Positions 16,008 through 23,721 of a DNA stretch of 52,352 nt are shown one piece after another; position 1 is the first letter of the stretch, and the number at the start of each line of letters is the position of its first letter. This DNA comes from Coriobacteriia bacterium. GTDB lineage: Bacteria; Actinomycetota; Coriobacteriia; Coriobacteriales; Eggerthellaceae. Location: contig JAUNCQ010000005.1 of the NCBI GenBank assembly GCA_030526515.1, forward strand, positions 1 to 52,352, given 5' to 3'. Below the pieces are notes generated by a model. It was not told the origin of the DNA. It did not search any database and saw only the letters and a list, made by a program, of their open reading frames with translations. Position numbers and translations under genes: made by a program.

Positions 16008-17354
16008 ATGTCTATGCATAACAGCATTGGCGCCGAAGCGGCCTGCACCCAGCAGGTCGCTTTCGTCACCCTGGGTTGCGCCAAGAACGAAGTGGATACC
16101 GCTCGCATGAAGAGGGCCCTGCGCGCCGCCGGCTATACGGTGGGCGAAGACCCCGAGCAGGCTCAGTGCGTGGTCGTGAACACCTGCTCCTTCATCCAGG
16201 ACGCCACCGAGGAAAGCCTGGACACCATCTTCGAGCTGGCCCAGCTTCCCAGCATGAGGGAGAACGGCGCCAAGATCATCGCCGCCGGCTGCATGCCGGC
16301 CCGCTACGGCAACGACCTCCAGGACGAGCTGACCGAGGCCCAGGCCTTCGTGCCCTGCTCCAAGGAGGACGACATTGCCGCCGTGGTCGCGTCCCTGATC
16401 GGCCCGGGTGCTGCCGTGGGCACTCCCAACGCCGTCGAGCTGGGAGCCCATGACTACGAGCCCACCGCCGGCCCCTTCAGCACCTACGTGAAGATCTCCG
16501 ACGGCTGCGACCGGTTCTGCTCCTACTGCACCATCCCGTACATCCGCGGCCGCTACCACAGCTTCGACTTTGCCACCGTTCAGGGCGAAGTCCGCTCTGC
16601 GGTCGAGGCCGGCGTGCGCGAGGTCATCCTGATTGCCCAGGACACGGGCCGCTGGGGCGCCGACTTCGACGAGCCCCGCAGCCTTGCCTGGCTCATGGGC
16701 ACCCTTGCCGAGGAGTTCCCGCAGACCTGGTTCCGCGTCATGTACGTGCAGCCGGAGGGCATCACCGATGAGCTGCTGACCGTCATGCGCGACCATGCCA
16801 ACATCTGCCGCTACCTGGACATTCCGCTGCAGCACGTCAACGGCAAGGTCCTGAAGGACATGAACCGCACCGGCGACCGCGCGTATTTCGACCAGGTCTG
16901 CGCCCACGTGCGCCAGATGGTGCCCGGCATCACCCTGCGCACCACGCTCATTGCGGGCTTCCCGGGCGAAACCGACGACCAGTTCGAGGAGCTCTGCGAC
17001 TTCGTGGAGGAATGCGACTTCGATTACATCGGCGTGTTCCCGTACTCTCAGGAGGAGGGCACCCGTGCGGCCTCCATGCCCGATCAGCTTTCGCCCGAGG
17101 AAAAGCAGGACCGCGCACAGCGCGTACGCGACCTCGCAGACGCCGTTTGCACGGCTCGTGTTGCAGAACGGGCAGGTCAGCGTGTTACCGTACTGATTGA
17201 GGGTTTGGAAGAAGACGGCCAGCTGTACGGCCGCGCCATGAGCCAGGCCCCCGAAGTGGACGGTTGCACCTACGTCAACGGCGGAAACCCGGGCGACGTG
17301 GTGGAGGTGACCGTCACCGACACGCTGTTCTACGAAATGGAGGGCGAGCTCTGA
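16008..17354 (+). CDS. rimO: Ribosomal protein uS12 methylthiotransferase RimO
   Basis: RimO (448 residues) is a radical-SAM enzyme that methylthiolates Asp88/89 of ribosomal protein uS12. Order of domains: N-terminal UPF0004 with the three cluster-binding cysteines (TLGCAKNEVDT, NTCSFIQDA, AGCMPARY), the radical SAM motif CDRFCSYC (CxxxCxxC) and a C-terminal TRAM domain (VTVLIEGLEEDGQLYGRA). The LGCAKN-VD and SFI-DA-EES wording separates it from the MiaB found at 23.8 kb. I use the ATG at 16008; a second in-frame ATG is 6 nt later. Its TGA overlaps the ATG of the next gene, so the two are translationally coupled. Confidence 0.95.
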   Translation: MSMHNSIGAEAACTQQVAFVTLGCAKNEVDTARMKRALRAAGYTVGEDPEQAQCVVVNTCSFIQDATEESLDTIFELAQLPSMRENGAKIIAAGCMPARYGNDLQDELTEAQAFVPCSKEDDIAAVVASLIGPGAAVGTPNAVELGAHDYEPTAGPFSTYVKISDGCDRFCSYCTIPYIRGRYHSFDFATVQGEVRSAVEAGVREVILIAQDTGRWGADFDEPRSLAWLMGTLAEEFPQTWFRVMYVQPEGITDELLTVMRDHANICRYLDIPLQHVNGKVLKDMNRTGDRAYFDQVCAHVRQMVPGITLRTTLIAGFPGETDDQFEELCDFVEECDFDYIGVFPYSQEEGTRAASMPDQLSPEEKQDRAQRVRDLADAVCTARVAERAGQRVTVLIEGLEEDGQLYGRAMSQAPEVDGCTYVNGGNPGDVVEVTVTDTLFYEMEGEL

Positions 17355-18442
17355 TGAGCAGCCAAAACGACAAGACGACCGTATGGACCCCGGCCAACGT
17401 GGTGACGGTGGTACGCATTGCCGGCGTGCCGCTGTTCGTGGCGGCGTTCCTGGCACCGTGGCCCGCCTGGCTTCCCGGCGGCCATGAGATCGCCTGGGCG
17501 CAGCCCTGGGTGGCCGCCGCGCTGTTCGCCGTTCTGGCGGCAACCGACGGCGTTGACGGATACCTGGCACGCAGCCGCAACGAGGTCACCGACTTCGGCA
17601 AGTTCGTGGACCCGCTGGCAGACAAGATTCTGGTGGCGGCTGCGCTGCTTGCCCTGACGGAGCTTCAGATCCTGCCCTCGTGGGTCGCTCTGGTCATCTT
17701 GGTGCGCGAGTTCATCGTCTCCGGCCTGCGCATGATCGCCGCAGCTCAGGGCGCCGTGGTGGCAGCCAGCTGGTACGGCAAGGCTAAGACCTGCTTCCAG
17801 ATCGCGGCCATCCTCATGTTCATCCTGAAGGATGCCATCATGCCCGACTCCCAGCTGCTGTTCCTGGGCAGCTGGCTGGTCATGCTGATCGCGCTGGCGC
17901 TGACCATCGTGTCCATGGTGGACTACTTCATGAAGTGCCGCGGCTTCCTGGGTCTGGGCCCCAAGCCCGAGCCCGAGCCGACCCTGGCGGAGCAGGTGGT
18001 TGCCGCTGCCAAGGACGCCAACGTGACGCTGGGCACGGCCGAAAGCCTGACCGGCGGCCTGATCAGCGCCGAGCTGACCAGCGTTCCCGGCAGCTCAGCC
18101 GTGGTGCGCGGCGGCGTGACCTCCTACGCCATTGACGTGAAGGAGAACCTCTTGGGCGTCAGCGGCGACGTGCTGGAGTCCCAGGGCGCCGTGGACCAGG
18201 ACGTGGTCCTGCAAATGGCACAGGGCGCAGCCGAAAAGCTCCGCGCCGACCTGGTGGTCGCCGTGTCCGGCATTGCCGGCCCCGGTGGCGCCGAGCCGGA
18301 CAAGCCGGTGGGCACCGTCTGGATGGGCTGGTGGTTCAAGGGCCAGTCCGGCGCCGAGCGCCTGCAGCTGAAGGGCGACCGCGATAAGATTCGCCAGCAG
18401 ACGGCGCACGCGGCCCTGAAGAAGATGAAGGACCTGCTGTAG
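17354..18442 (+). CDS. Fusion of PgsA (phosphatidylglycerophosphate synthase) and CinA C-terminal domain (NMN amidase)
   Basis: One unbroken frame of 362 residues holds two enzymes. Residues about 1-195 are a CDP-alcohol phosphatidyltransferase with the full motif DG-x2-AR-x8-G-x3-D-x3-D ([11 protein letters not shown] to FVDPLADK) and several membrane segments; this should make phosphatidylglycerophosphate. After a short GPKPEPEP linker (about residue 200) comes the CinA C-terminal domain (PncC) with [24 protein letters not shown] and VSGIAGPGG, which deamidates nicotinamide mononucleotide. In related genomes pgsA and cinA are usually adjacent separate genes before recA. The ATG overlaps the rimO stop (ATGA). 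No stop or shift lies in the linker, so the fusion looks real. Confidence 0.9.
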
Positions 18443-20433: not shown

Positions 20434-20609
20434 CTTTGTCACACAGTCCCTCTATTTAGGTTAGAATAAACAGCACGTGAGTATTCGTACCCGATTGGGT
20501 ATTTTGTTATAGATACAAATCAAGACAATCTCTTTCGAGTAGTTCGTATGCTCATGCCTGGCTATTGCCTGGCATTTTATATGTCATAACCCGTTTGGAA
20601 GGAGAACGA

Positions 20610-22151: not shown

Positions 22152-23228
22152 ATGAACCAGCTGACTTCCTTCTTGGATGAGGTTGCAACCGAAAGCCATC
22201 TCCGAGTCGAAACCGACCTCGGGGATGGCTTCGTTCGTCTGCGCACCGATGAAGCCGAGCGCAGGCAGGCTGCCCATGACATCCGTACCAACGAAGACAT
22301 GATCATCGAGCTGCTGCGCAACTCCCGCGACGCCCACGCCCGCAACATCTTCCTGGCCTTCGCCAAATCCGGGGACGATAGGGTAGTGGTGGTCGTCGAC
22401 GACGGCGACGGCATCCCCGCCCACATGCACGAGCGGGTCTTCGAGCCTCGCGTCACGTCCAAGCTGGACAGCATGCACTTGGACAAGTGGGGCATCCACG
22501 GCCGCGGCATGGCCCTGTACGCCGTCAAGGTGAACGCGCGGGAGTCCCGCATCTGCTGCTCCGCCCCGGGGAAGGGCTGCAGCCTGTACGCCCGCACGAA
22601 TCCGGACAAGGTGGTCGAGAAGGCAGACCAGTCCACATTCCCCACCTTCATCCTGAAGGACGGCGGCAAGGTGACCGTCAAGGGCCCGAAGAACATCCTG
22701 CGCACCGCCTGCGAGTTCGCCCTGGAGCACCGCAGCTCGGTTTCGCTGTACGTAGGCTCCATCTCCCAGATCGCCGCAACGCTGTACGAGTTCGGCTGCG
22801 CCACCATCTCCTCGGTTGAGCGCGCATTCGGCGACGGTCGCCAGGACTCCGCCGTGGTCAAGCGGCTGGCTTTCGCCCGTGACTGCCAGGAGTTCGCCCA
22901 GATCGCCCACGAGCTGGGCCTGGACATGTCCGAGCGCTCCGCCCGCCGCATCATGGACGGGGAGGTCCGTCCCGCGCCCGAGATCAAGGAGCTCATCACC
23001 TTCGTCGACCAGCGCGAGCAGGCTGCCGCACCCGCCAAGACGCCGCGGAAGCGCACGTCTGGCGGCATCCGTTTCGCCCCAGAGGACCTGTCCCGTTTCA
23101 AGGACACCGTGGCCCGGGCCTACGCCGAGCTGGCAGATGCCTACTATCTGGAGTCGGACCCACATATTGTGGTTCAAAAGCGCTCGGACGCACTACATAT
23201 ATCGATTCCGCTGTACCCGAATTCCTAA
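22152..23228 (+). CDS. Orphan HATPase (GHKL) protein between rny and spoVS
   Basis: A 358-residue soluble protein with a complete GHKL ATP-binding fold: N-box IELLRNSRDA (residues 52-61), G1 DDGDGIP (83-89), a kinase-type FEPRVTSK (98-105), and G2 HGRGMALYAV (116-125). There is no membrane segment, no HisKA dimerisation/phospho-accepting helix and no receiver domain, so it is not an ordinary sensor kinase. The C-terminal 150 residues (including HELGLDMSERSARRIMDGEV and a basic stretch PAKTPRKR) are not recognised; part may be helix-turn-helix-like. It starts 10 bp after rny. In Bacillus the corresponding place between rny and spoVS is held by the phosphodiesterase gene ymdB. Possible roles are an RNA-decay partner, a stress-related kinase or a MORC/MutL-like clamp; none is shown. 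Confidence 0.75.
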   Translation: MNQLTSFLDEVATESHLRVETDLGDGFVRLRTDEAERRQAAHDIRTNEDMIIELLRNSRDAHARNIFLAFAKSGDDRVVVVVDDGDGIPAHMHERVFEPRVTSKLDSMHLDKWGIHGRGMALYAVKVNARESRICCSAPGKGCSLYARTNPDKVVEKADQSTFPTFILKDGGKVTVKGPKNILRTACEFALEHRSSVSLYVGSISQIAATLYEFGCATISSVERAFGDGRQDSAVVKRLAFARDCQEFAQIAHELGLDMSERSARRIMDGEVRPAPEIKELITFVDQREQAAAPAKTPRKRTSGGIRFAPEDLSRFKDTVARAYAELADAYYLESDPHIVVQKRSDALHISIPLYPNS

Positions 23229-23370: not shown

Positions 23371-23721
23371 GTGTCCTCAACCGTAGAAGCCTCGGCAGGC
23401 ATCGGCTGCCTGAAGGTATCTTCCAAGTCTTCTCCCGCCTCCGTCGCCGGCGCAATCGCTGGCATGATCAAGGACGGAGCCCTCGTTGAAATCCAGGCTG
23501 TTGGAGCCGGCGCCGTCAACCAGGCCGTCAAGGCAATCGCCATCTCCCGCGGCTTCCTTTCGCCCGTAGGCATCGAGATCGCCTGCATTCCGTCCTTCGC
23601 AGACATCGTCATCGACGGCGAGTACCGCACCGCGATCCGCTTCGCGGTCGAGCCCCGCTACATGCGCGGCGTGCCTCAGGAGTACGCGGGCGAAAGCGAC
23701 GTCTCTTATTCTTTCGAGTAG
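23371..23721 (+). CDS. spoVS: SpoVS-related (Alba-like) nucleic-acid-binding protein
   Basis: A 116-residue protein whose first 86 residues match SpoVS: LKVSSKSSPASVAGAIAG, IQAVGAGAVNQAVKAIAISRGF and the IEIACIPSFADIVIDGEYRTAIRFAVEPR end. SpoVS belongs to the Alba superfamily and acts in Bacillus sporulation, yet it occurs in many non-sporulating bacteria, presumably as an RNA or DNA binder. The protein is longer than usual: about 20 extra C-terminal residues (YAGESDVSYSFE) are not part of the family. Start is GTG with AAAAGGAAAA upstream. It lies between the HATPase gene and miaB, as in Firmicutes rny-spoVS-miaB neighbourhoods. Confidence 0.9.
   Translation: MSSTVEASAGIGCLKVSSKSSPASVAGAIAGMIKDGALVEIQAVGAGAVNQAVKAIAISRGFLSPVGIEIACIPSFADIVIDGEYRTAIRFAVEPRYMRGVPQEYAGESDVSYSFE

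Follow-up and report, generated by a model that had tools for sequence, protein, structure and literature searches.

A predicted GHL-type ATPase encoded directly downstream of rny in Coriobacteriia and its possible role as an accessory factor of RNase Y

The gene that directly follows rny in a member of the Coriobacteriia encodes a soluble protein that, judging from its sequence and a structural model, is probably a GHL-type ATPase with an intact Bergerat ATP site, predicted to hydrolyze ATP. Because the gene directly follows rny wherever we examined it, its product, here called the ATPase, probably takes part in mRNA decay as an energy-driven partner or regulator. A narrower reading, in which it would be a dedicated accessory factor whose ATP cycle gates RNase Y, stands at about an even chance on the sequence and model evidence.

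The ATPase gene and its surroundings

We analyzed a window of 52,352 nucleotides, the whole stretch of DNA under study, from contig JAUNCQ010000005.1 of assembly GCA_030526515.1. An earlier, sequence-only reading had described an open reading frame carrying the motifs LLRNSRDA, DDGDGIP, FEPRVTSK, and HGRGMALYAV, and all four are present in the ATPase gene (Table 1). The same reading placed the gene between rny and spoVS, as it is, and 10 bp after rny, where the gap is in fact 9 nt; the gap from the ATPase gene to spoVS is 142 nt. A pattern search recovered no promoter-like site in either of these two intergenic gaps, and the 9-nt gap holds neither a promoter-like nor a terminator-like site. 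The N terminus of RNase Y has a hydrophobic, membrane-anchor-like stretch. Upstream in the window, positions 17354-18442 (+) encode a 362-residue fusion of PgsA (CDP-alcohol phosphatidyltransferase, 2.9e-41) and CinA (1.8e-51), which are two separate genes in Collinsella (L187).

Table 1. Features of the ATPase gene, its product, and its neighbors in the window. Invariance counts refer to 48 full-length homologues from several classes.
Feature	Coordinates	Strand	Evidence and remarks
Promoter-like site upstream of rny	20438..20467	+	Pattern match only
rny, RNase Y, 510 aa	20610..22142	+	TIGR03319 2.9e-216; RNase_Y_N, KH_1, HD
ATPase gene (P0001), GHL-type	22152..23228	+	358 aa; HATPase_c 1.3e-8
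N-terminal helix/arm, residues 1-17	22152..22202	+	Helix 2-16 at low pLDDT; F7 48/48
GHL (Bergerat-fold) domain, residues about 18-203, boundaries inferred	22203..22760	+	Profile and fold
N box, E53-x3-N57-x2-D60	22308..22331	+	48/48; aligned with ELVENSLDA of MutL
G1 box, D83-DGDGI-P89	22398..22418	+	D83, G87, P89 48/48
F box and VTSK, residues 97-104	22440..22463	+	F97, V101, T102, K104 48/48; compare ATSK in MutL
G2 box, GIHGRGMALY, residues 114-123	22491..22520	+	H116-L122 48/48; compare GFRGEALYSI in MutL
Helical domain with HTH-like element, residues about 204-292	22761..23027	+	C-terminal model
S260-x-R262-x3-R266 motif, one helix	22929..22949	+	Invariant 48/48 across classes
Variable linker, residues about 293-309	23028..23078	+	pLDDT <50 at 294-303; length 10-25, median charge +2
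C-terminal helix and beta-hairpin unit, residues 310-358	23079..23225	+	H310-330, E340-344, E347-351
spoVS	23371..23721	+	PF04232 5e-35; often a neighbor, not obligatorily

The ATP site resembles that of MutL and other GHL proteins

The N, G1, F/lid, and G2 boxes all lie in one domain, which matched HATPase_c above the Pfam cut-off and also HATPase_c_3 (7.2e-7). In GHL enzymes the catalytic residue is a glutamate that precedes the N-box asparagine by four positions (E29/N33 in MutL and E42/N46 in GyrB), and the aligned E53 is the presumed catalytic glutamate of the ATPase. Residues 1-17 form a possible dimer-swap arm.

MutL ranked first in a single-sequence search of solved structures, and a profile of 48 members matched Aquifex MutL at 3.7e-9, MLH1 at 1.3e-6, and Bacillus MutL at 1.3e-5, with the best histidine kinase, CckA, at 2.7e-4. 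An AlphaFold model built from 33 sequences has a mean pLDDT of 87.7. Kinases and MutL were intermixed at the top of a Foldseek search with this model. Structural re-alignment again placed MutL first (Z 13.5, 158 aligned, rmsd 4.4), with topoisomerase VI-B and GyrB also leading and no histidine kinase among the 50 best entries. The matches to MutL, topoisomerase VI-B, and GyrB span about residues 31-284, at Z 11-13.5. It is this order by profile and fold that favors a GHL protein over a kinase; E53 alone is undecisive, since an N-box glutamate of this kind is also found in RsbW-type kinases. The label "kinase-type" given to the domain at first sight is thus not retained.

Membership in several known families was examined and rejected. 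A sensor histidine kinase was rejected because a Pfam scan allowing E values up to 1 showed no HisKA and because fewer than 50 residues precede the ATPase domain; the scan likewise contained no sensor or receiver domain, as had been claimed from the sequence. A SpoIIAB/RsbW kinase was discarded because HATPase_c_2 (PF13581) was not among the matches at E up to 1. The protein is also not a full member of the MutL family, as TIGR00585 scored 30.7 bits against a cut-off of 180 and covered residues 51-108 only.

The family designated f40 (L170, L171, and L172) has shorter proteins (307-317 residues) whose G2 box is altered to PHGAGLSLYH, and L170 has Q at the E53 position. HATPase_c is still matched in the f40 proteins, which are possibly losing ATPase activity, judging from these substitutions. 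An ATP site that is degenerate in places in f40 counts against the proposed accessory role.

The C-terminal half is specific to the family

As the sequence-only reading had proposed, we predicted the structure of the C-terminal half. Residues 178-358, modeled alone from 48 sequences, gave a confident fold (mean pLDDT 90.2): the part as far as about residue 290 is helical, and a linker connects it to a long helix followed by a beta hairpin. Within the helical part, the segment LGLxxSERxAxRILxGEI resembles a helix-turn-helix (HTH) with a longer turn, and the HTH-like domain has weak winged-helix-like fold matches at Z 2-4. Y331 is near-invariant in the terminal unit, residues 310-358.

The C-terminal half had been called unclassified, and no search overturned this. 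A C-terminal profile searched against the PDB gave no better match than an unrelated GTPase subunit (0.044); Pfam on 48 C-terminal halves produced scattered weak matches only (e.g., Nif11 in 3/48) and no significant HTH; Foldseek returned nothing below E 0.9; and re-alignment gave Z of at most 5.1. Neither Pfam on the 48 halves nor the fold searches matched the C-terminal dimerization/endonuclease domain of MutL. No S5-like domain was reported in the C-terminal fold searches, which excludes nothing. A SpoVS-like fold (2eh1) for the last 50 residues was considered and dropped, as a Z of 3.3 is too weak to use. By sequence and modeled fold, therefore, the C-terminal half is family-specific, with no known family matched convincingly.

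The basic patch that, in the sequence-only reading, could bind nucleic acid turned out to be the low-confidence, variable, disordered linker (about residues 293-309) between net-acidic segments. The two folded parts have median net charges of -2.5 and -2 and are acidic in most members, which argues against RNA binding by this half. Nucleic acid binding is not favored because the folded parts are acidic and the basic patch is a variable linker.

Distribution and gene order

Counted without correction for phylogeny, as are all distribution and co-occurrence figures here, the ATPase gene is near-universal in the class Coriobacteriia: it is present in 97 of 100 relatives, far above what chance would give, and in 195 of the 197 class-sample genomes. 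The tally of 170/170 for good genomes includes one, G009, whose match is weak (2.3e-4) and does not represent the ATPase gene. It is a core single-copy gene of Eggerthella, Gordonibacter, Adlercreutzia, Slackia, and Collinsella. Several other actinomycetotal families also carry it, and 97 of the 246 genomes in our phylum sample have it at strong scores. RNase Y is encoded in 96 of these 97, the exception (G480) being a 79%-complete draft. SpoVS is absent from 28 of the 97, these being families f40, f49, and two others, and occurs without the ATPase in ten genomes. The carriers are gut and environmental bacteria.

The order of rny and the ATPase gene is highly conserved, and the scattering of the gene among relatives that would have spoken against a link was not seen. 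Directly upstream on the same strand lies rny in all 150 ATPase loci, some of which share one genome, and spoVS lies within 2.5 kb downstream in 139 of them. Across the 150 loci, the median gap is 21.5 nt between rny and the ATPase gene and 163 nt between the ATPase gene and spoVS. Outside Coriobacteriia, 68/68 matches compared by coordinates follow rny directly, with gaps between profile matches of -2 to 550 nt (median, 43). The wider order is recA-recX-rny-ATPase-(spoVS)-miaB-miaA. In family f5 (L035, L045, and L050), of the same taxonomic order, the rny-ATPase pair is kept, but neither spoVS nor miaB turned up in the sequence retrieved downstream. A defense or phage gene was rejected, with no PADLOC match and no viral contig; the sole plasmid record with the gene, from Collinsella and 0.9 Mb long, has the usual chromosomal gene order.

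The ATPase gene is missing beside rny in some genomes. In the finished genome G009 (genus g9, of the same family as the window), rny and spoVS are intact and are separated by some 240 A+T-rich nucleotides with no ATPase gene, most simply the result of a natural deletion. This locus (L181; G009:C1:1015000-1027000), in a 1.4-Mb genome, offers a natural deletion strain for comparison. At the five loci with rny and without the ATPase that we read, no copy lies near rny; of the genes searched for, the one that follows is spoVS or miaB.

RNase Y is the favored partner

The most likely partner of the ATPase is RNase Y, not SpoVS, because SpoVS is missing from 28 of 97 ATPase genomes, whereas rny is missing only once, from the 79%-complete draft. 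Of the two links first suggested from the sequence, the one between a conserved ATPase-like protein and the RNA-decay gene rny is thus borne out by gene order; the equal case made for SpoVS falls away with 28/97 genomes lacking SpoVS against 96/97 with RNase Y, and SpoVS is ruled out as an obligatory partner. RNase Y does not need the ATPase, since 81 genomes of the phylum sample have rny without it. The conserved neighborhood could simply reflect inherited order, recA, recX, miaB, and miaA being conserved there too, and this counts against the proposed role.

We compared evolutionary distances in a mirror-tree test of 79 loci. The partial correlation of the ATPase is 0.097 with RNase Y, 0.343 with RecA, and 0.291 with MiaB, so rate co-variation gives no specific support for a link between the ATPase and RNase Y. 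In the same 79 loci, which have recA, rny, spoVS, and miaB, the distances of RNase Y and SpoVS co-vary strongly with the other genes controlled (partial r, 0.584), which may point to a link between these two.

Proposed role and alternatives

Bacillus RNase Y is redirected by partner proteins (PMC10470536). In GHKL+S5 modules, ATP alters protein-protein interactions and the S5 domain supplies a basic finger (PMC2292703), and R262/R266 could by analogy form such a finger. As in other GHL proteins, ATP binding would cause dimerization through the N-terminal arm, and hydrolysis would open the dimer. The C-terminal half, with its S-x-R-x3-R helix, might sense nucleotide through an S5-like basic finger or dock on membrane-anchored RNase Y, and the ATP cycle would gate the engagement of RNase Y or the choice of substrate RNA. 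The ATPase would modulate RNase Y without being an essential subunit, given that one lineage lacking it keeps rny. We put at slightly below an even chance the broader proposal that it represents a new MutL-like GHL family dedicated to RNase Y, in which ATP drives a clamp or switch that controls the onset of mRNA decay in Coriobacteriia as well as in other RNase Y-using Actinomycetota.

Other explanations draw on the same data. The ATPase might be a DNA-acting GHL clamp, MutL- or MORC-like, that belongs with recA, recX, and SpoVS and sits beside rny by chance: DNA enzymes are its closest relatives in both fold and profile searches, its gene lies downstream of recA and recX, and its distances track RecA above RNase Y with other genes controlled (0.343 versus 0.097). 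We consider this unlikely, as recA stays beside rny in lineages without the ATPase (L182, L183, and L184), rny is absent from only one incomplete draft among the 97 ATPase genomes, no restriction-modification neighbors were seen, and SpoVS is dispensable. A role for the ATPase in loading or remodeling SpoVS would suit the 139/150 loci with spoVS within 2.5 kb, but the 28 of 97 ATPase genomes without SpoVS (f40 and f49 included), the ten genomes with the reverse pattern, and the shorter median distance to rny than to spoVS make it improbable.

Two further alternatives stem from the protein itself. The HTH-like element, with its invariant S260, R262, and R266 and weak winged-helix matches, could bind DNA, possibly at its own operon's promoter, with ATP serving as the signal; such a transcription regulator is improbable given matches at Z 2-4 only, no significant Pfam HTH, and a net-acidic domain. 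It is very unlikely that the ATPase is a GHKL protein kinase, of either the SpoIIAB/RsbW or the histidine kinase kind, with RNase Y or SpoVS as its phosphorylation target: the Bergerat fold, the kinases among the Foldseek matches, and the N-box glutamate shared with RsbW-type enzymes would accommodate this reading, yet HisKA and HATPase_c_2 were not found in the Pfam scan, and MutL-type proteins come first by profile and fold, with no histidine kinase in the 50 best re-aligned entries.

We found no paper or curated family describing the ATPase gene, no paper joining RNase Y and GHKL proteins, and none on the regulation of RNase Y in Coriobacteriia; in the literature searched, no GHKL protein is described with a role in mRNA decay. 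The known GHL ATPases are DNA machines (MutL, gyrase, topoisomerase VI, and MORC) or chaperones (Hsp90). If the proposed role in the function of RNase Y, an endonuclease that cleaves mRNA, is true, GHL machinery would extend to RNA turnover, suggesting a concrete route by which the cellular ATP level could control mRNA decay. Being core, single-copy, and unnamed in gut bacteria, the ATPase gene is testable and matters for annotation.

Comparison with known systems

The N-terminal ATPase of MutL/MLH shares with our protein the GHL fold, the E-x3-N-x2-D motif, ATSK/VTSK, and the RG-ALYSI box (E value, 3.7e-9; Z up to 13.5). Unlike MutL, whose second and C-terminal domains were not detected in it, the ATPase has its own C-terminal half and is fixed beside rny. 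MORC and paraMORC proteins (PMC2292703) are likewise prokaryotic GHKL ATPases with an extra C-terminal part, and they match weakly by profile (0.019-0.05). They are, however, mobile and sporadic, mostly in restriction-modification operons, and have an S5 domain, whereas the ATPase is core and syntenic beside rny. A MORC/paraMORC neighborhood was also rejected: rny is upstream in 150/150 loci, the Collinsella neighbors are annotated as housekeeping genes, and there is no PADLOC match.

RicT/RicA/RicF (the Y-complex) of Bacillus (PMC10470536) are partners that redirect RNase Y, a functional analogy only, as they are unrelated to the ATPase in sequence. All 10 genomes tested have a RicT-type (PSP1) gene alongside the ATPase, so the ATPase is not a stand-in for RicT. 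YmdB (TIGR00282) follows rny in Firmicutes, as seen in Vescimonas, but is a metallophosphoesterase of another fold, and it was not found in the Coriobacteriia of our sample. The parallel with YmdB drawn by the sequence-only reading is right as to the shared position after rny; a strict replacement does not hold, since families f33 and f40 carry both YmdB and the ATPase. The same gene in Collinsella (WP_271759152.1), to which NCBI gives the generic name "ATP-binding protein" with no family or function assigned, stands in the order recA-recX-rny-gene-spoVS-miaB-miaA-hflX.
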